Of a DNA stretch of 64,000 nt, positions 34,672 through 44,964 are shown piece after piece. Made by a program: the position numbers and the translations under genes. The stretch comes from Deefgea piscis. GTDB taxonomy: Bacteria; Pseudomonadota; Gammaproteobacteria; Burkholderiales; Chitinibacteraceae. The stretch is taken from NCBI RefSeq assembly GCF_019665785.1, contig NZ_CP081149.1:310001-374000 (forward strand). Reading direction: 5' to 3'. Each line of letters opens with the position of its first letter. The first letter of the stretch is position 1. A model generated the notes under the pieces. The model worked only from the letters and a program-made list of their open reading frames with translations. It searched no databases and was not told the DNA's origin.

Positions 34672-36165
34672 TCACTCAATACCCCGGCGATATTGGATTG
34701 CTTCAGCCAGATGCGGCGTTAAAATCGCCTCACTACCAGCTAAATCAGCAATCGTTCGGGCTACGCGCAATACTCGATGATAAGCACGCGCAGACCAGGC
34801 TAATTTTTGAATCGCATTTTGCAACATGGCCAAACCTGCGGCGTCCGTTTGGCAATGGGTATCCATTGCCGCGCCGAGTAAAGTAGAATTATTATGACCT
34901 TGCCGTGCTAGCTGCCGCTCACGGGCTTCACAAACCCTTTCACGCACCAATAAACTGCCTTCACTTTGCCCTTTGGCCAATAACACCGTATCAGGAATCG
35001 CCGGTACTTCGACCACCATATCAATACGATCCAGTAATGGTCCAGAAATGCGGCCTCGATAGCGCAGCACTTGTTCTGGCGTGCAACGACATGCTTTCTT
35101 CAGATGCCCTAAATATCCACAAGGACAGGGATTCATCGCCGCCACCAGTTGAAACCGTGCCGGAAATTCAGCTTGCCGTGCTGCGCGAGAAATATGAATT
35201 TTTCCACTCTCAAGTGGCTCTCGCAATACCTCTAAAACTTTTCGATCAAATTCGGGTAATTCATCTAAAAACAGAACCCCATGATGCGCCAGTGAGATCT
35301 CTCCAGGTTGCGGAATACTGCCACCACCCACTAAAGCAACGCTGGACGCCGTATGATGCGGGCTACGAAATGGGCGCTGACCGACATTACGCAGATCAAG
35401 CCCATTTTGCCCTAAGGACTGAATCGCTGCCGCCTCTAGTGCTTCATTTTCCAATAATGGCGGTAATAAACCCGGTAGCCGCTGCGCCAACATTGATTTA
35501 CCGGTTCCTGGTGGGCCAATCAGTAATATAGAATGATTGCCCGCTGCCGCCACCTCAAGACCACGCCGAGCGGCAGACTGCCCTTTTACATCGGCTAAAT
35601 CAGGATAAATAGGATTTGCCCTATCCATTGGCGCTAAAGCCGTTGGTAATGGTTGAGCTCCACTAAGATGGTGGCAAACTTCAAGTAAATGCGCTGCAGA
35701 CAATATCGCTGCATTTTGAATTAATGCCGCTTCATGACTGCTACTGGCACTAATAATCAATGTTCGCTGCGCATCACGAGCCGCCATGGCTAATGCCAAG
35801 CCACCTCGTACTGAACGTAATTGCCCAGTTAAGCCTAATTCACCCGCAAATTCATAATCAGCTAAATGCTCGCAGGGTAATTGCCCACTCGCAGCTAATA
35901 TACCCACCGCAATCGCCAAATCATAATGCCCTGCCCCTTTGGGCAAATCGGCAGGAGCTAAATTTACGGTAATTCGGCGATTAGGAAATTCAAAACCAGC
36001 CACTTGCAATGCCGCTCGAACTCGTTCTCGAGATTCACGAACTTCAGTATCAGCCAGCCCCACCAAATTAAATGCGGGCAAGCCATTGGCTAGATGAACC
36101 TCAACAGTAACCGATTGCGCAGATAAGCCATCTAATGCTCGAGAATACAAAACGGCAAGCGACAT
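34672..36165 (-). CDS. comM: ComM/YifB-type AAA+ ATPase
   Basis: 497 aa. An N-terminal Lon-substrate-like domain (ANGLPAFNLVGLADTEVRESRERVRAA) is followed by a magnesium-chelatase-type AAA+ core with Walker A GPPGTGKS, Walker B GVLFLDELPEF, and the C-terminal SGPLLDRIDMVVEVP and SARAYHRVLRVARTIADL segments. ComM is a helicase that drives branch migration during natural transformation, so the organism may be naturally competent. It is the only gene in this minus-strand unit. Confidence 0.93.
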   Translation of the reverse strand: MSLAVLYSRALDGLSAQSVTVEVHLANGLPAFNLVGLADTEVRESRERVRAALQVAGFEFPNRRITVNLAPADLPKGAGHYDLAIAVGILAASGQLPCEHLADYEFAGELGLTGQLRSVRGGLALAMAARDAQRTLIISASSSHEAALIQNAAILSAAHLLEVCHHLSGAQPLPTALAPMDRANPIYPDLADVKGQSAARRGLEVAAAGNHSILLIGPPGTGKSMLAQRLPGLLPPLLENEALEAAAIQSLGQNGLDLRNVGQRPFRSPHHTASSVALVGGGSIPQPGEISLAHHGVLFLDELPEFDRKVLEVLREPLESGKIHISRAARQAEFPARFQLVAAMNPCPCGYLGHLKKACRCTPEQVLRYRGRISGPLLDRIDMVVEVPAIPDTVLLAKGQSEGSLLVRERVCEARERQLARQGHNNSTLLGAAMDTHCQTDAAGLAMLQNAIQKLAWSARAYHRVLRVARTIADLAGSEAILTPHLAEAIQYRRGIE

Positions 36166-36222
36166 GATTGATTCACAAATGCTATGCTAATTCATACAGT
36201 GTAAGCAGGAAAATCAGATTTA

Positions 36223-37218
36223 ATGGAACAATCAACGATTTTAATGCCTAATTTCCGAAATTTAGGCGTAGTGTTGCGCGCCTTAGTCTTAGTGCATTTA
36301 GGCGTCTTGATTTATGTATTTATTAGTATTAATCGCTGGAATGAATGGATAAACAAACTCACCGAAATTAGTTTATGGGTTGAACCTGTCCTACTTATTT
36401 CATTAGCAGGGCTAGCAGTAGTGAGTGCACAACTACAAAAAATGAACTACCGAAATGCTGTGATGACTGTATTGCTGTGGGTTTTCTGCGTCGCGTTTAG
36501 CATATCAAAGCTATTTCAAAATTTAATTCCGCTTGACCAGAGCGTTGTACCTTGGCGCTTTGAGTTTATTACGCTCAGCGTGACTTTTTTGCTGCTGCAT
36601 TATTACCAACTTTGGATTCGTGCCCTATCACCGCGTTTGGCTGAAGCCAGACTTGTCGCCTTACAGGCAAGAATAAGACCGCATTTTTTCTTTAATAGTT
36701 TGAATGCGGTGCTATCTTTAATACGAAGTCAGCCAAAATTAGCTGAGCGGCTGCTAGAAAACCTGTCAGAACTCTTTCGTGTAGCAATGGGTACAGAGAC
36801 AGGTCTTTCCACAATGGCGCGCGAAGTAGAATTGGCGCAAGGTTATCTTGAAATTGAAAAGGTACGTTTAGGTGATCGCTTACAAGTTGAATGGCATATC
36901 GACAAGATGCCTAAAAACGCCCTGATCCCACCGTTGATTCTGCAACCATTGCTAGAAAACGCGATTTATCATGGTATTGAGCCAAATATCGAACCTGGGA
37001 TTATTCAATTGAATATATTTCGAGTGCGTGAGGAAGTACATATCAACATTCGAAATCCTCTTTTAAATAGTACGCCGCTACGACGCGGTAATGGCATGGC
37101 ACAAGAGAATGTACGCGAGCGTTTACTGCTTTATTATGATGCCGAAGCAAATCTCAGCATCACCACAGGAAACGACTATTATCAAATACATATCATGCTG
37201 CCCTATCGGGAGCTTTAA
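36223..37218 (+). CDS. LytS/AlgZ-type sensor histidine kinase
   Basis: 331 aa. Four hydrophobic segments (about 15-35, 45-65, 72-92 and 105-125) are followed by a His_kinase domain (PF06580 type): the phospho-acceptor His in RIRPHFFFNSLNAVLSLI, then the LIPPLILQPLLENAIYHGIE N-box. The glycine box is NPLLNSTPLRRGNGMAQENVRERL. The stop is 2 bp before its response regulator. No periplasmic sensor domain exists, so the signal is sensed within the membrane or by partners. Confidence 0.92.
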   Translation: MEQSTILMPNFRNLGVVLRALVLVHLGVLIYVFISINRWNEWINKLTEISLWVEPVLLISLAGLAVVSAQLQKMNYRNAVMTVLLWVFCVAFSISKLFQNLIPLDQSVVPWRFEFITLSVTFLLLHYYQLWIRALSPRLAEARLVALQARIRPHFFFNSLNAVLSLIRSQPKLAERLLENLSELFRVAMGTETGLSTMAREVELAQGYLEIEKVRLGDRLQVEWHIDKMPKNALIPPLILQPLLENAIYHGIEPNIEPGIIQLNIFRVREEVHINIRNPLLNSTPLRRGNGMAQENVRERLLLYYDAEANLSITTGNDYYQIHIMLPYREL

Positions 37219-37220
37219 CA

Positions 37221-37991
37221 ATGAATACTGCGTTACGACTCTTTCTCGTTGATGACGAACTACCGGCACTCAACCGATTGCAGGACCTTCTAAATGATTG
37301 TGCGCAAGAATGTCCAAATCAGGTCATTGGCACAGCAACCAATGGTATGAGTGCGCTACCGCAAATTGCTGAGCATGACATTGATGTGGTGATTTTAGAT
37401 ATCCAAATGCCGCAAATGAGTGGAATTGAGGTGGCTAAAAAACTAATGCATTTAGCAAAACCACCAGCAGTTATTTTTGCAACTGCATTTGAAGATTATG
37501 GCGTTGCTGCATTTGATGTACGTGCGGTTGATTATTTACTCAAGCCAATACGACAAGATCGTCTTCTTACAGCATTAAAACGAGTCGTAGAACAAAAACA
37601 ACAACATCATATACCAAGCAACAATCAAACTATCGAAGGTGCACGTAGTCATTTCAGTGTGACTGAACGCGGACGCGTTCACTTAATTCCTGTGAGTGAA
37701 GCTCGCTTTTTAAAAGCAGAACAAAAATACATCACACTACGTACTCGTGACCGTGAATACTTACTTGAAGATTCGTTAACTAAGCTAGAAGATGAATTTG
37801 GATCAAAATTTGTCCGAATACATCGCAATTGCTTAGTCTCTCGCGATAATATCGCTGGATTCGAACGCGAAGTGCAAACTGGGGGCGAAGCGCATTGGGT
37901 TGTGATATTACGTGATGTGCCAGAGCGATTACCTGTGAGTCGTCGCCAACAACATATTATTAAAGACTTCAAAAAAGGTCATGATGGATAA
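37221..37991 (+). CDS. LytTR-type response regulator (AlgR-like)
   Basis: 256 aa. A receiver domain with DDELPAL acidic pocket, the phospho-acceptor Asp in DVVILDIQMPQMSG and Lys in DYLLKPI, followed by a LytTR DNA-binding domain (about 140-250, with LIPVSEARFLKAEQKYITLRT and KFVRIHRNCLVSRDNI). AlgZ/AlgR-like pairs control type IV pili, alginate or biofilm traits in other bacteria. The targets here are unknown. It overlaps the next gene by a few bases. Confidence 0.93.
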   Translation: MNTALRLFLVDDELPALNRLQDLLNDCAQECPNQVIGTATNGMSALPQIAEHDIDVVILDIQMPQMSGIEVAKKLMHLAKPPAVIFATAFEDYGVAAFDVRAVDYLLKPIRQDRLLTALKRVVEQKQQHHIPSNNQTIEGARSHFSVTERGRVHLIPVSEARFLKAEQKYITLRTRDREYLLEDSLTKLEDEFGSKFVRIHRNCLVSRDNIAGFEREVQTGGEAHWVVILRDVPERLPVSRRQQHIIKDFKKGHDG

Positions 37992-38397
37992 TTTTAGTAT
38001 CAATACCCCTTCATTATTATTTCCTGCTATTTCCTTGTTAATGCTGGCGTATACCAATCGATTTTTAACTATTTCAAGTATTATTCGTCAGCTTTATGAT
38101 CATCACCGCAGTAATCCGCATGATAATATTTTGCGTCAGTTAGCTAATTTAAGAAAACGAGTATGGCTTATTCGTTATATGCAAGCTTTTGGTATTACTA
38201 GTTTATTACTGTGTATTATTTCAATGATTTTTATGGCCATAAACTTAGATCAGTTAGCGCAGGGATTATTTGTTGCTAGTTTAATATTAATGATAGGATC
38301 ATTAATATTATGCTTACAAGAAGTCATGGTATCAGATTCAGCATTAAAAATTTTATTGTCTGATATTGAAGATGAAATAAAAAATCCTAAAAAATAA
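37984..38397 (+). CDS. DUF2721-family membrane protein
   Basis: 137 aa from the ATG at 37984; one codon upstream is also ATG. It has three hydrophobic segments (about 10-28, 70-95 and 100-120). The opening TPSLLFPAISLLMLAYTNRFLTISSIIRQL and the final VMVSDSALKILLSDIEDE are typical of DUF2721. Overlap with the response regulator means translational coupling, so it may be part of the same signalling unit. Function unknown. Confidence 0.83.
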   Translation: MDNFSINTPSLLFPAISLLMLAYTNRFLTISSIIRQLYDHHRSNPHDNILRQLANLRKRVWLIRYMQAFGITSLLLCIISMIFMAINLDQLAQGLFVASLILMIGSLILCLQEVMVSDSALKILLSDIEDEIKNPKK

Positions 38398-38401
38398 CTA
38401 T

Positions 38402-38427
38402 AAAAAACGGGCTAAAGCCCGTTTTTT
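38402..38427. terminator. Bidirectional terminator
   Basis: AAAAAACGGGC-TAAA-GCCCGTTTTTT is a perfect stem with A and T runs, between the DUF2721 gene and the convergent dgkA. Confidence 0.93.
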
Positions 38428-38428
38428 A

Positions 38429-38800
38429 TTATGCTAACAAAGCTAAAATCCACATTGCTGCTAAATTAAATAAACAGACTAATTGTGCTGCACTACCTAA
38501 ATCCTTAGCCCTTTTGGCTAAATCATGTTTAGCTAAAGAAGTATGATCAACAGCCGCTTCAATCGCTGAATTTAGCAATTCAACTATCATAGTAACTAAA
38601 TGGCTTGCAACAATAATCGCATGAGCCCATGCCGGCATAGCAAGGAAAAAAGATAATGGAATACCAACAATCGCTAACAAACTGACTTGACGAAAGGCCG
38701 CTTCATTTATCCAACCTGCTTTTAATCCATCAATTGAATAACCTAATGCATTTAATACTCGTTTTACGCCTGTTTTACCTTTAAAGGGGCTTTCGCTCAC
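38429..38800 (-). CDS. dgkA: Diacylglycerol kinase
   Basis: 123 aa from the GTG at 38800, with GGGAGA upstream, which matches the usual 120-125 aa length. A longer ATG frame at 38836 would overlap the previous gene. Three membrane helices; GYSIDGLKAGWINEAAFRQ at the start and IVELLNSAIEAAVD as the catalytic Glu/Asn segment are diagnostic. It phosphorylates diacylglycerol produced by membrane-derived oligosaccharide or lipopolysaccharide modification. It is cotranscribed with the upstream membrane protein gene. Confidence 0.93.
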   Translation of the reverse strand: MSESPFKGKTGVKRVLNALGYSIDGLKAGWINEAAFRQVSLLAIVGIPLSFFLAMPAWAHAIIVASHLVTMIVELLNSAIEAAVDHTSLAKHDLAKRAKDLGSAAQLVCLFNLAAMWILALLA

Positions 38801-38813
38801 TCTTTCTCTCCCG

Positions 38814-39548
38814 TTAAGATTCAAATACATCAACATAACAAATATAGCTAGTTAATAAAGCTACTGGTAATGCAATAATTAAACCTAAAAACATTGGCAA
38901 TATTGCTAAAAATAAAAATACACCGCCAATCATAGACATGATTAAGATTGGTTGCCAATTTCTCCAAAAAGCTAGAAATGATAACTTCATTGCCTCATTA
39001 GCTTTCATTCCTTGCAACATCACTAAAGTTGGGGCATAAAAATAAGCACTATAAACAATTAAAAAAGCAAATAATACAACGATTAACAAAGGCCAAATTA
39101 CACCAATCTGCTCAATAATTTGAATGTTTTTATTGATCGAAAGAAAACCAAAAAAAGACGATATTGCAAATAGCACAGTCATCAATACCATAACAAATAT
39201 GGTACCGAACATATATAAAACACCAACTTTTATTAATTCAAAAAATCTTAATTTAAATCCTGAAAACAAATCAATTAATTCTGGTATTTCTCCATCTGCT
39301 TGTTTTTTTGCCGACCACATAATACCACCTAAAAAAACCGGCCCAAGCAAAGTAGAAATAAACCCACCAATTACAGGTAAGAAAGCAATACCAAAAAATA
39401 GCGCCACAAAAACGCCACAAATACTAATCCAGATTGTTGGTGCTTGTTTAAATAATTTAAATGCATTCACAATCCAATACCAACCTTGTATTGCGGGTAT
39501 TTTTTTTGGTTCAATACTTACATCGATTACATTATCTTGTTCTAACAT
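38814..39548 (-). CDS. BPSS1780-like integral membrane protein
   Basis: 244 aa from the ATG at 39548 with AGG upstream. Six hydrophobic segments follow an acidic N-terminus. The motif GWYWIVNAFKLFKQAPTIWI resembles the BPSS1780 family of betaproteobacterial membrane proteins of unknown role. It ends 13 bp before the dgkA start. Confidence 0.75.
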   Translation of the reverse strand: MLEQDNVIDVSIEPKKIPAIQGWYWIVNAFKLFKQAPTIWISICGVFVALFFGIAFLPVIGGFISTLLGPVFLGGIMWSAKKQADGEIPELIDLFSGFKLRFFELIKVGVLYMFGTIFVMVLMTVLFAISSFFGFLSINKNIQIIEQIGVIWPLLIVVLFAFLIVYSAYFYAPTLVMLQGMKANEAMKLSFLAFWRNWQPILIMSMIGGVFLFLAILPMFLGLIIALPVALLTSYICYVDVFES

Positions 39549-39642
39549 ACTTATTACCTGGTTAAAAAAGGTTAATCCCCACATCCTAACTGAAATTAGA
39601 TCTTTTTTAAGCCTGTATCTTGCCAGATAAAGATGAAGCTCA

Positions 39643-39676
39643 CATGAAAAAGCCGCTGAAATCAGCGGCTTTTTTA
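39643..39676. terminator. Terminator after ackA
   Basis: AAAAAGCCGCTGA and TCAGCGGCTTTTTT form a long stem with a 2-nt loop and flanking A/T runs. On the minus strand it follows ackA. Confidence 0.9.
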
Positions 39677-39692
39677 TTAAAATACTATAAAT

Positions 39693-40883
39693 TTATGCGA
39701 TGCAAGCCAATGCTTGGCGAGCAATCATTAGTTCTTCATTCGTTGGAATCACATAAACTGCGATTTTACTATCAGCTAAAGAAATGCGGCGTGGTTCACT
39801 AGAGCGTACCGCATTTGCCGCTTCATCAAGCTCAACACCTAACCAACGCAATTGATGACAAACTGCTTTACGTGTATTTGCATCATTTTCACCAATACCA
39901 GCAGTAAATACTAAAGCATCAATACCACCGATCGCCGCAGCTAAAGAAGCAGCTTCTCGAACTACACTGCTTGCAAAGTAATCAACTGCTAATTTTGCAC
40001 GTGGCGAATCTGAATTTTCTAGATCACGCATATCGCTAGAGAAACCTGACAAACCAAGCAGACCAGATTCTTTGTATAGCAAGGTTTCAATTTGTTTTGC
40101 ATCCATTTTTAAATGGTTCATCAAATGCAATACAACACCCGCATCAATACGTCCACAACGAGTACCCATTGGCAAACCATCTAATGCAGTAAAGCCCATC
40201 GTTGTTAATTGGCAGCGACCGCCAAGTAAACCAGCCATTGAAGAACCGTTACCTAAATGAGCAACGACAGTACGACCTTCTGCGGCACGAGTATCAATTT
40301 CTGGCAATACGCTGGCAATATATTCATATGACAAGCCATGGAAGCCATAACGACGAATGCCTTCTTTTTGTGAGAATTCATACGGTAGTGCAAATAATTG
40401 GTTTAATTCAGGTTGAGTCGTGTGAAATGCAGTATCAAAACAAGTGACTTGCGGCACATTTGGCAATAATTCTTCAAGGACACGAATTGGTGTGATGTTA
40501 TGTGGTTCATGCAAAGGTGCCAAAGGAATCAAAGCTTCTAAACCAGCAATCACTTCTGGTGTCACAAGTTCAGGTTTTGAATAAGTGGTTCCACCATGAA
40601 CTACACGATGGCCAATAACTGCAATTGAACGTCCTTCAATGCGTGATTCCAACCAGTTGAGCATATAGCGTAAAGCATAGTCGTGATTTTTTGGCGCATC
40701 ACTAGGTAATGTTTCATTGGCTACTTTATTATCAGCTGCATCTTTTGCACTAAATTTTGGTTCTACATACAAACCTTCCATTTGGCCTTTAAATAAGACG
40801 ATAGGATCAGCTGCGCTAGTCTCAAATAATGAAAATTTAATACTTGAAGAACCTGCATTGATAACTAAAACTAATTCACTCAT
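39693..40883 (-). CDS. ackA: Acetate kinase
   Basis: 396 aa. ASKHA fold with LVINAGSSSIKFSLF at the start, GHRVVHGG, CFDTAFHTT (catalytic Asp), RRYGFHGLSYEY, VAHLGNGSS and FTAGIGENDANTRK. It interconverts acetate plus ATP with acetyl phosphate plus ADP. pta is not adjacent. A long AT-rich non-coding region lies upstream. Production of acetate from GlcNAc-6-P deacetylation makes a metabolic link with the nearby PTS genes plausible (inference). Confidence 0.96.
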   Translation of the reverse strand: MSELVLVINAGSSSIKFSLFETSAADPIVLFKGQMEGLYVEPKFSAKDAADNKVANETLPSDAPKNHDYALRYMLNWLESRIEGRSIAVIGHRVVHGGTTYSKPELVTPEVIAGLEALIPLAPLHEPHNITPIRVLEELLPNVPQVTCFDTAFHTTQPELNQLFALPYEFSQKEGIRRYGFHGLSYEYIASVLPEIDTRAAEGRTVVAHLGNGSSMAGLLGGRCQLTTMGFTALDGLPMGTRCGRIDAGVVLHLMNHLKMDAKQIETLLYKESGLLGLSGFSSDMRDLENSDSPRAKLAVDYFASSVVREAASLAAAIGGIDALVFTAGIGENDANTRKAVCHQLRWLGVELDEAANAVRSSEPRRISLADSKIAVYVIPTNEELMIARQALACIA

Positions 40884-41566
40884 TTTTTACTCCAAATTAA
40901 AAAATAACGAAGGGTATTGATCTATAAACCTAGTAAATCAAGACCTTGAAGGCCATACTACTTAAACTAATTTTAAAAAATTATTAAATATAAACATATA
41001 GAAACTTAATTATGCAAATAGTTATTAAGTTGCATCATATTATGATTTTGTATAGTTCATATAAATTCTTACAGCATAAATTGCAATTTTATTGTAAGTT
41101 ACTTACATTTCTTGATTGCGCAAAATAGTACTTCTTAAAATATGTAAGGTTTAATCCAGATTTACAGCGAACTACAGTCACTTACTTATTATGACGTGTA
41201 GTTTGGCAAACACTTGTAGGCTATGCAAAGTAAATTGTGGCATATCAGTAGTGATATGAAGCTTTAAAATCAACCTTATCTATTTGTTTTTATTCAATAT
41301 TTTTAAACAAAGCTATTCTTTTTATCATTAAGTTAGCACTTGATTCATCATTTTTATTAGCAGTTAGCTCTACAATTACGGTAAATTTTACATAAATTGA
41401 AAGTTTAAACTTGATGAATGTATGTGCTTAGCTTCTGATATTGATCTAGTTTTTACTTGATTTTTAAAAGATGTCGTTTGCATAACTCATAAAATTAACA
41501 GCATTATAAACCGTGAAAATTATAATAACTTGGTTAATATCAAGGTCTTGAAGGTCATCGTTAAAA
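40884..41566. promoter_or_regulatory. Divergent AT-rich control region of ackA and the lipoyl-like gene
   Basis: 683 bp without a gene. It holds the palindromes TGTAAGT-T-ACTTACA (41093-41107) and GTAAATTTTAC (41381-41391). CAAGACCTTG (40939-40948) near ackA and its exact reverse complement CAAGGTCTTG (41541-41550) near the other gene lie at the two edges. The extended 20-bp copies at 40937-40956 and 41539-41558 agree at about 17 positions. The arrangement suggests one regulator acting on both divergent promoters. Confidence 0.5.
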
Positions 41567-42052
41567 ATGAATACTAATTACACTACGCATCTTATTTGTG
41601 CTCCGGATTTATCAGATGCTTTTAAAGTAACTAATATTAATATTAAATTAGGTGAATTTGTACATAAAAATGAATTGCTAATATCCTTAACTAAAAACAA
41701 TGAACATATTTATATTAATGCAATTGAGGATGGTCAAATTAGTTATTTATTTATTAAAATTGGTGATGATATTAATAGCGGTGATTTATTATTATCAATG
41801 GAAATTGAAGAATTGCCAACTGGGTTTTTAGATATTGCAGATCAATCTGGTTACAAAGATTCAACACAAATAGATATTGAAAATTCATTATTGATAATAC
41901 CTTCTGCAGCAAGTTTAGCTTCTCGTTTAGGTGTTGATTTAAGTTTAGTAACTCCAAATTGTATAACTGGTTATATAGGTAATGAAGAAGTTGAATTATT
42001 TGTTAAGCATGAATTATTAAAATTACAGCAGTTGAGGAAATTATTAGCATAG
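41567..42052 (+). CDS. Lipoyl-domain-like protein with E3-binding-like tail
   Basis: 161 aa, AT-rich coding. Residues about 15-80 follow the lipoyl/biotinyl fold pattern (NINIKLGEFVHKNELLISLTK then GQISYLFIKIGDDINSGDLLLSME). The modified lysine expected at the beta-turn is replaced: the turn reads TKNNEHIY, with Asn at the lysine place. Residues about 109-150 (IPSAASLASRLGVDLSLV then TGYIGNEEV) resemble the peripheral subunit-binding domain of E2 enzymes. No catalytic acyltransferase domain follows. It could dock to a dehydrogenase or be a regulator; the role is unknown. It sits between ackA and the candidate oriC. Confidence 0.6.
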   Translation: MNTNYTTHLICAPDLSDAFKVTNINIKLGEFVHKNELLISLTKNNEHIYINAIEDGQISYLFIKIGDDINSGDLLLSMEIEELPTGFLDIADQSGYKDSTQIDIENSLLIIPSAASLASRLGVDLSLVTPNCITGYIGNEEVELFVKHELLKLQQLRKLLA

Positions 42053-42506
42053 CTTGTCTGTTTCAAAATATGTATTTGGTATTTCACTTTGGATTGATGT
42101 TTGTTGGTTGCAAGTTTTAAGTCATTGATTTTTATAGCTTAAATTTAAAATTGTTTATAAGTTATTGATTTATATATGTTTTTAGATCTCCCGAATTTTA
42201 AGGTGATCATGTTTTGAAGCGTTTGTTTTTTATATATATATTGATAAGTAAAAGATAGTAGTAATAGATAAGGATCAGAAATTCTGTGGATAACTCGATA
42301 AACCTATATTTATCAACATTTTAAGTTATCCACATGGGTGCTGATAGTCCTTGTTCCTGCTGTGGATAATATGTGTTGAGTTTTAGCTTTGATCTGTGGG
42401 TAACACTTATCCACATTGATCGTGGACTTCCCCACATTTTAAGTGATTGATTTGTATAGGGTTGTGTGAATAAGCGTATAATCGCGGCTTTTATTGGGGG
42501 TGTTTG
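42053..42506. other. oriC: Candidate chromosomal origin of replication (oriC)
   Basis: Perfect DnaA boxes (TTATCCACA or complement) at 42285-42293, 42326-42334, 42361-42369 and 42407-42415. One-mismatch boxes at 42310-42318 (TTATCAACA), 42395-42403 (TGTGGGTAA) and 42465-42473 (TGTGAATAA). Five GATC sites lie between 42185 and 42421. A long AT-rich stretch (about 42060-42284, including TATATATATATTGATAAG) is on the left. The run TAGTAGTAATAG (42256-42267) ahead of the first box has the 3'-GAT/AAT-5' repeat form of a DnaA-trio, marking the unwinding side. All genes to the right up to 63 kb run away from it. dnaA is not adjacent. An alternative is a DnaA-titrating cluster like datA. Confidence 0.78.
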
Positions 42507-43412
42507 ATGGCAATTCAGTGGTTTCCGGGTCATATGCATGTGGCGCAGAAGAAAGTGGCAGAGACAATGGCCAAGGTGGATATGGTGATTGAAATCGTGG
42601 ATGCACGTATGCCCTTGTCCAGTAGTAACCCAATGATTGAGAAGTTGCGTTTGCATCGGCAACGTCCAGCTTTAAAAATTATCAATAAAACAGATTTGGC
42701 TGATCCTAAGTTAAGTCAGTTATGGTTGAACTATTTCCGCCAGCAAGCTGGTACTGAAGCCTTGTTGATGGGCGAAGACAACAAGCAAGCGGCTATTAAA
42801 CAGATCGCTGTCTTGTGCAAAAAATTAGCACCGTTTCGTAATGATGCTGAAAAGCCGTTGCGAGCGATGATTTTGGGCATCCCTAACGTTGGTAAGTCGA
42901 CTTTATTAAATACGCTGGCGAAGCGAAAAGTGGCGCGTGTTGCAGATACCCCCGGTGTTACTAAGTCTCAGCAGCGGATTGAAACGCTTGATGGGGTTAT
43001 TTTGTATGACACGCCAGGATTAATGTGGCCTAAAGTTGAGCATGAACCTTCAGGTTTTCGCTTGGCTTTGGGCGGCTCAATTGGTCGCAATGCGTATGAT
43101 GAAATTTTGGTGGCTTATTTTGCGATTGAAACTTTACGTGAGCGCTACCCTAAAGAATTGATGGCACGCTATAAATTGAGTAGTTTGGATGGTAGTGTGG
43201 ATGAGTTGTTTAATTTGATTGGTCGTAAACGTGGCGCTTTGATGGCTGGTGGTGTGATTGATGAACAAAAAACAGCTGATTTAATTATCACGGATTACCG
43301 TAGCAAAGCGATTGGTCGAATGACTTTAGAAGTACCTGATGACTTTATCGGGGTTGATTTAGGTTCGGGGGATGATCTTCCTGACGAACTTGAAACTGAA
43401 GATGAAGATTGA
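42507..43412 (+). CDS. ylqF: YlqF/RbgA-type ribosome biogenesis GTPase
   Basis: 301 aa from the ATG at 42507; a TTG directly before it is in frame. Circularly permuted GTPase: the NKTD motif (IINKTDLAD) comes before the P-loop GIPNVGKSTLLN and the DTPG motif. IQWFPGHMHVAQKKV is the usual N-terminus. An acidic C-terminal tail (ELETEDED) ends the protein. The family acts in late assembly of the large ribosomal subunit. It is the first gene to the right of the candidate oriC. Confidence 0.93.
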   Translation: MAIQWFPGHMHVAQKKVAETMAKVDMVIEIVDARMPLSSSNPMIEKLRLHRQRPALKIINKTDLADPKLSQLWLNYFRQQAGTEALLMGEDNKQAAIKQIAVLCKKLAPFRNDAEKPLRAMILGIPNVGKSTLLNTLAKRKVARVADTPGVTKSQQRIETLDGVILYDTPGLMWPKVEHEPSGFRLALGGSIGRNAYDEILVAYFAIETLRERYPKELMARYKLSSLDGSVDELFNLIGRKRGALMAGGVIDEQKTADLIITDYRSKAIGRMTLEVPDDFIGVDLGSGDDLPDELETEDED

Positions 43413-43494
43413 TTTGTATTCGTTGGCACTGATGTACTTGCTGAATGTAACATCACATAATATGTAACTCGGCATGCATTATCTAGCTTTGGTG

Positions 43495-43545
43495 TAGGTA
43501 TATCGCTGTAGATCTTTATTTTAAAGGGTTTTGTCTGTATACCTA
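43495..43545. repeat. TAGGTATA / TATACCTA inverted pair
   Basis: TAGGTATA (43495-43502) and TATACCTA (43538-43545) lie as inverted arms in the gap between ylqF and the zapB-like gene. It is one of several intergenic GGTATAT occurrences in this window. Confidence 0.4.
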
Positions 43546-43651
43546 TATGTAAGTTTAATAATTTATTGAATTTGTATCGAGATGCATAATCAATATTTTT
43601 ACTTTTTTGTCGCTGCATGACGTCAAAATTGCGATTGATAGGAAATCAAAA

Positions 43652-43852
43652 ATGGATGTAGAGCTTGGTCATTTGGAAGGCAAGGTCTTGCAATTAGTGA
43701 ACTTATGCCGTGAATTACGCACTGAAAATCAAGAACTTAGAGCCAATTTGCAATTGGCTCAAGAAGAAAATCAAAGCTTAAACACTAAATTAGTTGGCGC
43801 AAAAGACAAAGTGAATGCGATTTTGGCTAAATTACCTGAGGATGGCGTATGA
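43652..43852 (+). CDS. Small coiled-coil protein (ZapB-like / TIGR02449 type)
   Basis: 66 aa from the ATG at 43652 with AGGAAA upstream; the frame is open to 43607 but without a start of equal quality. Nearly the whole protein is a coiled coil: LEGKVLQLVNLCRELRTENQELRANLQLAQEENQSL with heptad leucines. Its stop overlaps zapA (ATGA), the common arrangement in which a short coiled-coil gene precedes zapA. It probably works at the division ring, by analogy. Confidence 0.82.
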   Translation: MDVELGHLEGKVLQLVNLCRELRTENQELRANLQLAQEENQSLNTKLVGAKDKVNAILAKLPEDGV

Positions 43853-44145
43853 CTGATGCCGTGAAGTTGTTGGATATTTCAATCATGGGACGTGAGTTTC
43901 GTGTGGCTTGTCCTGCGCATGAAGAAGAAACCTTACTTCAAGCTGTGCAACTTCTCGACGCACGGATGCATGAAATTCGCACTGCTGGTAAGGTCATTGG
44001 TATCGAGAAGATCGCAATGATGACGGCTTTAAATATGACGCACGAGTTTTTAACGGCAAAGGTTGAAGGTGGCTTTGACTTTAGTGATTTTCAGCGTAAA
44101 ATCGGTAACATCAGTTCAACGATCGACGCAGTTTTACAGGAATAA
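43849..44145 (+). CDS. zapA: Cell division protein ZapA
   Basis: 98 aa. DISIMGREFRVACPAHEEETLLQAVQLLDARMHEIR is the conserved ZapA N-terminal domain, followed by a C-terminal helix. ZapA cross-links FtsZ filaments at mid-cell. The start overlaps the preceding coiled-coil gene by 4 bp. 6S RNA and the 5-formyl-THF cyclo-ligase gene follow, the standard order in beta- and gammaproteobacteria. Confidence 0.93.
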   Translation: MTDAVKLLDISIMGREFRVACPAHEEETLLQAVQLLDARMHEIRTAGKVIGIEKIAMMTALNMTHEFLTAKVEGGFDFSDFQRKIGNISSTIDAVLQE

Positions 44146-44177
44146 TTTAATTATTTTGAACTGCGCCGTGATGCAAG

Positions 44178-44361
44178 TTAGCTTTCCTGCGGTGTTCGCG
44201 ACGGTTCTAAATCTTTGAACCGATAAGCTGTATAGCACGTTTGCCAGTCATCTAGACGCCTGTTGTGAGCGTTCCTTGAGAATGCACCTGATGGCATCTG
44301 ACCGGCAACAACTTGAACCATGGGTTCAAGATGCGAACCGAAACGGCACTGTGGGAAGCCC
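44178..44361 (+). ncRNA. ssrS: 6S RNA
   Basis: About 184 nt in the canonical place between zapA and the cyclo-ligase gene. The terminal stem pairs GCTTTCC near 44181 with GGGAAGC near 44353. The conserved 3' half element CTTGAACCATGGGTTCAAG (44312-44330) is a strong hairpin that matches the 6S closing region known from enterobacteria. It mimics an open promoter and sequesters sigma70 RNA polymerase in stationary phase. Ends are approximate. Confidence 0.85.
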
Positions 44362-44370
44362 TCATTTTTT

Positions 44371-44964
44371 GTGATTACTCAAAAAACTCAATTACGTCGT
44401 GATCTTCGGCAACGCCGAACTGCGATATCTAAAATACAGCGACAAGCTGCTGCTTGGGCTGTAACTCATTATCCGCAAATTTTACAAAAACTTCGTCGTG
44501 GCAAAAAAATTGCATTATATGTGCCTGTTGGCAGTGAGTTTTCTGCTTGGCCATTAATTTTTTTAGCACTGCAACGTGGTTGCTTAGTCTATTTGCCGGT
44601 TGTACCTAAAGTGGGTCGACGATTAAATTTTGTTCGCTTAAATGAAGATGCAGTTTGGTCTTATGGCGCATTTAATATTCTAACACCCAGTCATTTTGAG
44701 CAATGTTCAAGCCGTGATTTGAATTCTGTTTTTGTTCCTTTGCTTGGTTTTGATTTGCAATTAGCTCGATTAGGGCAAGGTGGTGGCTATTACGATACGA
44801 CATTTGCATTTCGTCGATTACGAAAAACTTGGCTTAAACCGGCATTAATTGGCTTGGCGTATTCATGCCAACAAGTGGAACGATTGCCTTGTGAGGCCTG
44901 GGATTTAAAGTTAGATGCAATTGCAACTGAACAAGGATGGATTCGTCGCTCGGGTATCAATTGA
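44371..44964 (+). CDS. 5-formyltetrahydrofolate cyclo-ligase
   Basis: 197 aa from the GTG at 44371, about 10 nt after the 6S RNA; a longer ATG frame would begin inside the RNA. ALYVPVGSEFSAWPLI and the C-terminal PLLGFDLQLARLGQGGGYYDTTFA are diagnostic (ATP and folate binding). It converts 5-formyl-THF to 5,10-methenyl-THF. The product carries the usual basic N-terminus (LRRDLRQRR). It is probably expressed from the same transcript as 6S RNA (ygfA/fau position). Confidence 0.92.
   Translation: MITQKTQLRRDLRQRRTAISKIQRQAAAWAVTHYPQILQKLRRGKKIALYVPVGSEFSAWPLIFLALQRGCLVYLPVVPKVGRRLNFVRLNEDAVWSYGAFNILTPSHFEQCSSRDLNSVFVPLLGFDLQLARLGQGGGYYDTTFAFRRLRKTWLKPALIGLAYSCQQVERLPCEAWDLKLDAIATEQGWIRRSGIN

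Follow-up and report, generated by a model that had tools for sequence, protein, structure and literature searches.

A candidate replication origin before ylqF, apart from dnaA, in Deefgea and its family

In Escherichia coli, oriC lies in the mioC/mnmG region, and its R1 box faces the melting region. The E. coli origin is described as separated from dnaA, and in the basal unwinding system the DnaA-trios should begin within 16 bp of a DnaA box, according to the same source (PMC8287927). Bipartite origins contain a spacer gene, which is given as usually dnaA (PMC4285127). The place of the origin differs between lineages (PMC4285127, PMC1914354), and oriC is near dnaA in most but not all cases, as stated for Ori-Finder 2022 (PMC10225481). 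Origins away from dnaA are known, but they are the exception.

The window analyzed here is a 64-kb stretch, bases 310001-374000 of a one-contig, 3,575,158-bp Deefgea chromosome (genome G000). The ylqF gene of this chromosome shares 98% identity with its D. salmonis counterpart. In the NCBI taxonomy, Deefgea belongs to Chitinibacteraceae, Neisseriales, Betaproteobacteria. Laribacter belongs to the same order. A predicted oriC with eight boxes is reported for Laribacter (PMC3135505), and base 1 of a meningococcal genome was set before dnaA (PMC7046676). Our literature search found no paper with an origin located before ylqF, and none on the origin of Chitinibacteraceae.

It is very probable, judging from the sequence, that window positions 42229-42473 are the replication origin (oriC) of this Deefgea chromosome. 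The original prediction of a candidate oriC without an adjacent dnaA is supported by the skew switch at the cluster, the density of DnaA boxes, and the conservation in the family.

The DnaA-box cluster and its surroundings

The whole proposed oriC element (42229..42473, plus strand) consists of an invariant AT-rich block and seven DnaA boxes. The box scan located the seven boxes in 189 bp of intergenic sequence (42285-42473). Four are perfect: box 1 (42285..42293, minus strand), which adjoins the proposed melting block, box 3 (42326..42334, plus strand), box 4 (42361..42369, minus strand), and box 6 (42407..42415, plus strand). Box 2 (42310..42318, plus strand), box 5 (42395..42403, minus strand), and box 7 (42465..42473, minus strand) have one mismatch each. 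All of the four perfect and three one-mismatch boxes predicted within 190 bp were thus found. The 64-kb window has no further cluster of this kind; the runner-up has two boxes in 250 bp.

The exact box, TTATCCACA, occurs 41 times genome-wide vs 11 times for the backwards-read control. Four exact boxes within 131 bp at the cluster constitute the densest exact group of the genome, and the exact-box scan of the whole genome never found more than two per 300 bp elsewhere. Assuming a uniform rate, the chance of such a four-box group is ~2e-8. The one-mismatch scan, which covered 590 kb of sampled stretches, detected two other groups, at 242.6-242.9 kb and 2,709.4-2,709.6 kb, neither as rich. A second, stronger cluster, the search for which belonged to the original prediction, was seen neither among exact boxes genome-wide nor among one-mismatch boxes in the samples. 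The group at 2,709.4-2,709.6 kb (G000:C1:2709415-2709583; L181:9415-9583) has four boxes, one of them exact, in 169 bp, and its stretch has no ORF of at least 80 aa. It is a possible DnaA-titrating site.

To the right of the cluster is ylqF (42507..43412, plus strand; TIGR03596, E 8e-92), which encodes a ribosome biogenesis GTPase and is the constant neighbor of the element in the family. From the reading of the sequence, the ATG at 42507 is better placed as its start than the mechanical TTG at 42504. Box 7 is immediately left of TATAAT (42477..42482, plus strand), the probable -10 element of ylqF, and thus DnaA may also affect ylqF. A 6S RNA (RF00013) is found at 44181-44361 of the window, between zapA and the 5-formyltetrahydrofolate cyclo-ligase gene, beside the proposed origin.

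To the left, a lipoyl-like ORF (41567..42052, plus strand; weak biotin/lipoyl match, Pfam E 2.5e-5) lies in a species-variable AT-rich flank. The search of viral_contigs with this ORF found no relative. The predicted location between a lipoyl-like gene and ylqF, away from dnaA and dnaN, was borne out. The GC content of the left flank (36001-42284) is 0.32-0.42 per 2 kb. The flank next to the element is unalignable among Deefgea species and represents a variable spot beside the proposed origin. The family matches of the ten ORFs in 36223-44961 include no plasmid or phage family.

The stretch beside the boxes, 42053-42284, is 76% AT, which confirms the AT-rich segment predicted beside box 1. It contains a 46-bp AT-rich block (42229..42274, plus strand), the proposed melting site (DUE). 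All 46 bp are invariant in the seven Deefgea genomes, while only ~10% of the 150 alignment columns left of the block are invariant among them. A constrained melting site beside a free flank would give such a sharp edge of conservation. The block is strongly constrained and is likely to be the melting site.

Within the block, TAGTAGTAATAG (42256..42267, plus strand) reads outwards from box 1 as 3'-GAT-AAT-GAT-GAT-5', the form of a putative DnaA-trio run. It is 17 bp left of box 1 and is present at the same distance in all seven Deefgea. The predicted run is thus present and invariant, but its GAT-phased reading begins one bp beyond the 16-bp limit of the published search program, and it fits no better than shuffles. 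The fraction of shuffles that do as well is 0.125 to 0.64 in the seven Deefgea, which is not significant. In G000, five NAN trios in another phase begin 3 bp from the box, and they are equaled by 16% of shuffles. The trio reading is better in nine genomes of genus g9 (shuffle fraction 0.005 to 0.06) and in G037 (0 of 200) than in Deefgea. G000 and 32 of the 41 genomes with a first box have three or more NAN trios no farther than 16 bp from the box, a number often equaled by shuffles. The trio reading of the invariant block is tentative.

The five predicted GATC sites are all present (42185, 42205, 42273, 42391, and 42418), but their number only slightly exceeds what the window as a whole would give (212 sites in 64 kb, or ~1.5 per 454 bp). 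Nor are the sites conserved; the last 270 bp before ylqF contain 0 to 3 GATC sites across 43 genomes. SeqA has no match in G000, while the E. coli control was positive. Due to the variable GATC sites and the absence of a SeqA match, control of the origin by SeqA and GATC was rejected. Sequestration of the E. coli type, dependent on Dam and SeqA, is unlikely here for the same reasons.

GC skew of the chromosome and the dnaA locus

The 21.7 kb on the left of box 1 have a GC skew of -0.088, and the 21.7 kb on its right one of +0.141. Inside the window, the minimum of the cumulative skew is at 41185. The genome-wide skew was sampled from about a fifth of the sequence (68 stretches; 70 for the fit-error values). 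On this sampled sequence, the skew switches from negative to positive at the cluster and in the opposite sense about half-way round the chromosome. The best two-arm fit to the 68 stretches on a 10-kb grid places the origin at 350 kb, close to the cluster (352.3 kb), and puts the terminus at 2.06-2.10 Mb (switch back at 2.05-2.10 Mb). The skew is positive in 31 of 32 right-arm stretches and negative in 32 of 36 left-arm stretches. The four left-arm exceptions are the stretch 350001-358000, which straddles the proposed origin, and those at 310001, 3180001, and 3300001. Along the record, the cumulative value is lowest at the very end (3.54 Mb), a consequence of the arbitrary place at which the record was opened. 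When the skew is read as a circle, the fall continues past the record start to about 350 kb. The cumulative-skew check, which was named in advance and was carried out on samples, placed the switch at the cluster and not at dnaA.

A dif-like 28-mer is found at 2,078,601-2,078,628, between the last positive and the first negative sample. It is 26 kb past the local skew maximum, and the implied arms are 1.73 and 1.85 Mb. The strict dif pattern with up to three mismatches found nothing. Four candidates came from a looser scan over 60 kb, one of them with a perfect first arm and center; this best match has three mismatches in one arm.

The dnaA match is at 669945-671309, 317 kb from ylqF. Adjacency to dnaA, which is usual for oriC but not defining, is thus not seen here. 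The gene order at dnaA is intact, with mnmE and yidC on the minus strand followed by dnaA and dnaN on the plus strand. One exact box precedes dnaA. The skew is positive on either side of dnaA (0.125, 0.048, and 0.059), without a switch. None of the 38 family genomes (of 43) examined near dnaA has two boxes in 250 bp; seven of these loci were read upstream only, and the records of G014 and G017, which begin at dnaA, have one exact box near the end of each record. In the 11 one-contig family genomes, the distance between ylqF and dnaA ranges from 27 to 411 kb. It is 27 kb in G037, 89 kb in G041, and over 200 kb in the other nine. An origin at dnaA was rejected, as skew, box counts, and relatives are all against it.

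Four further DnaA-like ATPase matches, with an identical score of 37.1 bits, are seen on the chromosome (G000:C1:1893186, 2458822, 2478210, and 3137525). They probably belong to a single insertion sequence, as its IstB-type helper.

Distribution in the family and the order

The family set contains 43 genomes from 11 genera, all with ylqF and dnaA. In 38 of the 43 genomes, the 260 bp preceding the YlqF match contain at least three boxes with up to one mismatch (shuffle mean 0.09). Only one or two such boxes are found before ylqF in G003, G004, G037, and G038. The element is absent before ylqF in G026, whose assembly has 680 contigs and 6% contamination. A first box with up to two mismatches is located 228-241 bp before the YlqF match in 41 genomes, all except G025 and G026. 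The same place in relatives is thus occupied by three or more boxes in 38/43 and by a first box in 41/43.

Over 20 kb on each side of ylqF, the skew is higher on the right in nine of ten one-contig relatives. It turns from negative to positive at ylqF in seven (G006, G007, G009, G027, G030, G037, and G041), with a change of less than 0.05 in G037 and G041. The skew around ylqF shows no such change of sign in G014, G017, and G023. An origin-like switch at dnaA was observed in none of the seven relatives tested, and G037 shows the opposite switch there.

Outside the family, 30 genomes from 22 other families were compared, out of 72 non-family ylqF genomes among 140 of the order. In none of these 30 genomes does the 1 kb before ylqF contain three boxes. 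At least three boxes within 300 bp are found by dnaA in nine of the 30; five of the 30 records begin at dnaA, and there only the downstream side of dnaA was covered. In the DnaA tree (29 rows, with G066 left out), whose bootstrap is not settled and many of whose forks are open, the nearest sampled outgroup is f21 (G108). Three boxes lie behind dnaA in G108, and two in G062 and G151 of f21. The G108 cluster by dnaA shows no skew switch across 11 kb. It is probable, if less strongly so than the position of the origin itself, that the origin moved from the dnaA-dnaN locus to ylqF in an ancestor of the family.

Exact boxes also cluster beside waaA in G173 (f51; L235:7152-8725) and G068 (f27; L236:4791-7318). 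In G169 (f44; L237:7232-7375), three exact boxes are located between lpxC and gapA, ~197 kb from dnaA. In stretches of 12-16 kb, an origin-type skew change is seen at the clusters of G173, G068, and G082; the change at the G169 cluster runs the other way. The waaA and lpxC/gapA clusters are possible origin neighborhoods in the order. Origins unlinked from dnaA may be frequent in this part of the order; the ylqF case alone is well supported here.

Further elements, alternative explanations, and known systems

The group at 242.6-242.9 kb (G000:C1:242629-242932; L141:2629-2932) has five boxes, two of them exact, in 304 bp between proB and cheD. One exact box is preceded by TAGTAGTAATAAATAAGG. The pattern ATAAGG-N(8-20)-TGTGGATAA matches the ylqF site in all seven Deefgea and a second site in four of them: G000 (242697-242723), G019, G018, and G021. 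In G000 and G019, where both lie on one contig, 109-110 kb separate the two sites. The alignment of the proB-cheD element with the proposed origin scores 34, and the maximum of 300 shuffles and the best other sampled stretch both score 30, so the margin is small. No skew switch is seen at the proB-cheD element (-0.035 and -0.055 on the two sides).

In all three genomes of genus g10 (G036, G037, and G038), the module recurs behind ylqF with three or four boxes (L022:2424-2660, L027:2424-2660, and L030:2424-2660). Local alignments between the copies before and behind ylqF score 51, 38, and 40, with shuffle maxima of 26 to 28. As the block-plus-box module recurs behind it, ylqF in g10 is flanked by two origin-like copies. 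No box is present within 1 kb behind ylqF in the other 27 loci read. In genus g9, the core pattern matches a second place away from ylqF in eight of nine genomes (G027, G028, and G030-G035). These second places share a spacer ending GTGTG..TTGTGGATAA.

It is possible, though rather doubtful, that the origin is a compact module, in which a box array follows an AT-rich, trio-like block with the first box, and that this module has been copied and moved repeatedly. This would cover the elements before ylqF in the family, behind ylqF in g10, at proB-cheD in Deefgea, and at waaA and lpxC/gapA in other families. The ylqF gene of g10 would then be the spacer of a split origin. If so, Deefgea may carry one active origin and one silent or regulatory origin, and the second element would be a record of how origins move.

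The proB-cheD element itself could be taken as the main origin, or as one of two from which the chromosome fires, given its five boxes with two exact ones in ~300 bp, the TAGTAGTAATAAATAAGG that precedes an exact box, and the second core-pattern site in 4/7 Deefgea. This has very little probability: the skew does not switch there, the fit error is 2261 at 242.7 kb vs 1394 at 352.3 kb, its boxes are fewer and weaker, and 3/7 Deefgea have the core pattern without a second place. Even less probable is an origin beside dnaA at 670 kb, in which case an inversion or rearrangement would have produced the skew switch at 352 kb. The fit error there rises to 4233, the skew is positive on both sides, an origin-like switch at dnaA was found in 0/7 relatives, and the 38/43 family genomes examined have at most one box per 250 bp near dnaA. 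The intact order of mnmE, yidC and dnaA, dnaN and the single exact box before dnaA are what such an explanation can draw on.

Replication might also start elsewhere, if the cluster were a datA/DARS-like site titrating or reactivating DnaA or a DnaA-controlled promoter of ylqF. Box 7 immediately left of the -10-like element would agree with such a role, and single boxes do occur before genes, as at dnaA. That the skew switch coincides with the cluster, that the opposite switch lies half-way round the chromosome, and that the AT-rich block adjoining box 1 is identical in 7/7 Deefgea make this very unlikely. Finally, an AT-rich left flank that is unalignable between species could be a trace of an integrated plasmid or other mobile replicon, whose origin the element would be. 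The distance to ylqF is, however, kept in most of the 43 genomes and 11 genera, the chromosome-wide skew is centered on the element, and no plasmid or phage family is found among the ten ORFs of 36223-44961. The chance that the element is such an origin is extremely small.

If 42229-42473 is the oriC, DnaA from the gene 317 kb away would bind the high-affinity boxes first and the weaker ones later. From box 1, DnaA would extend leftwards on to the trio-like, AT-rich invariant block and melt 42229-42274, and the helicase would be loaded at the melted block. One fork would leave through ylqF, zapA, the 6S RNA, and the rRNA operon, and the other through the AT-rich left flank. The forks would meet near 2.05-2.10 Mb.

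Most genomes of this betaproteobacterial family share ylqF as a new fixed neighbor, and the old dnaA-dnaN locus is intact. The family is a natural case for asking why the linkage between dnaA and oriC is usual and how origins move. Family records opened at dnaA (the one-contig G014, G017, and G023) would not begin at the origin. Tools that take dnaA as an indicator would misplace the origin, which matters for growth-rate estimates from read depth.

Compared with known systems, the element resembles E. coli oriC in its DnaA-box array, in the exact box facing an AT-rich putative melting region, and in being unlinked from dnaA. It differs from E. coli oriC in having ylqF as its neighbor, in lying 317 kb from dnaA, in its variable GATC sites, and in the lack of a SeqA match. 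Its box next to an AT-rich side with 3'-GAT-AAT-GAT-GAT-5' resembles the basal unwinding system of B. subtilis (DnaA box, spacer, DnaA-trios), but the GAT-phased run of Deefgea begins 17 bp from the box, where the program limit is 16. Genus g10 is similar to bipartite origins in having box groups on both sides of ylqF. This is not so in Deefgea, and the spacer gene between these candidate parts would be ylqF. The dnaA-dnaN origins suggested by box clusters of other families, at which the skew was sampled narrowly (e.g., 11 kb in G108), also have several TTATCCACA-type boxes in one intergenic stretch. In contrast to them, the Deefgea cluster is located before ylqF, and only one box remains at the dnaA locus. 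The element is thus a well-supported new example of a dnaA-unlinked oriC, with an uncommon neighbor common to most of the family.
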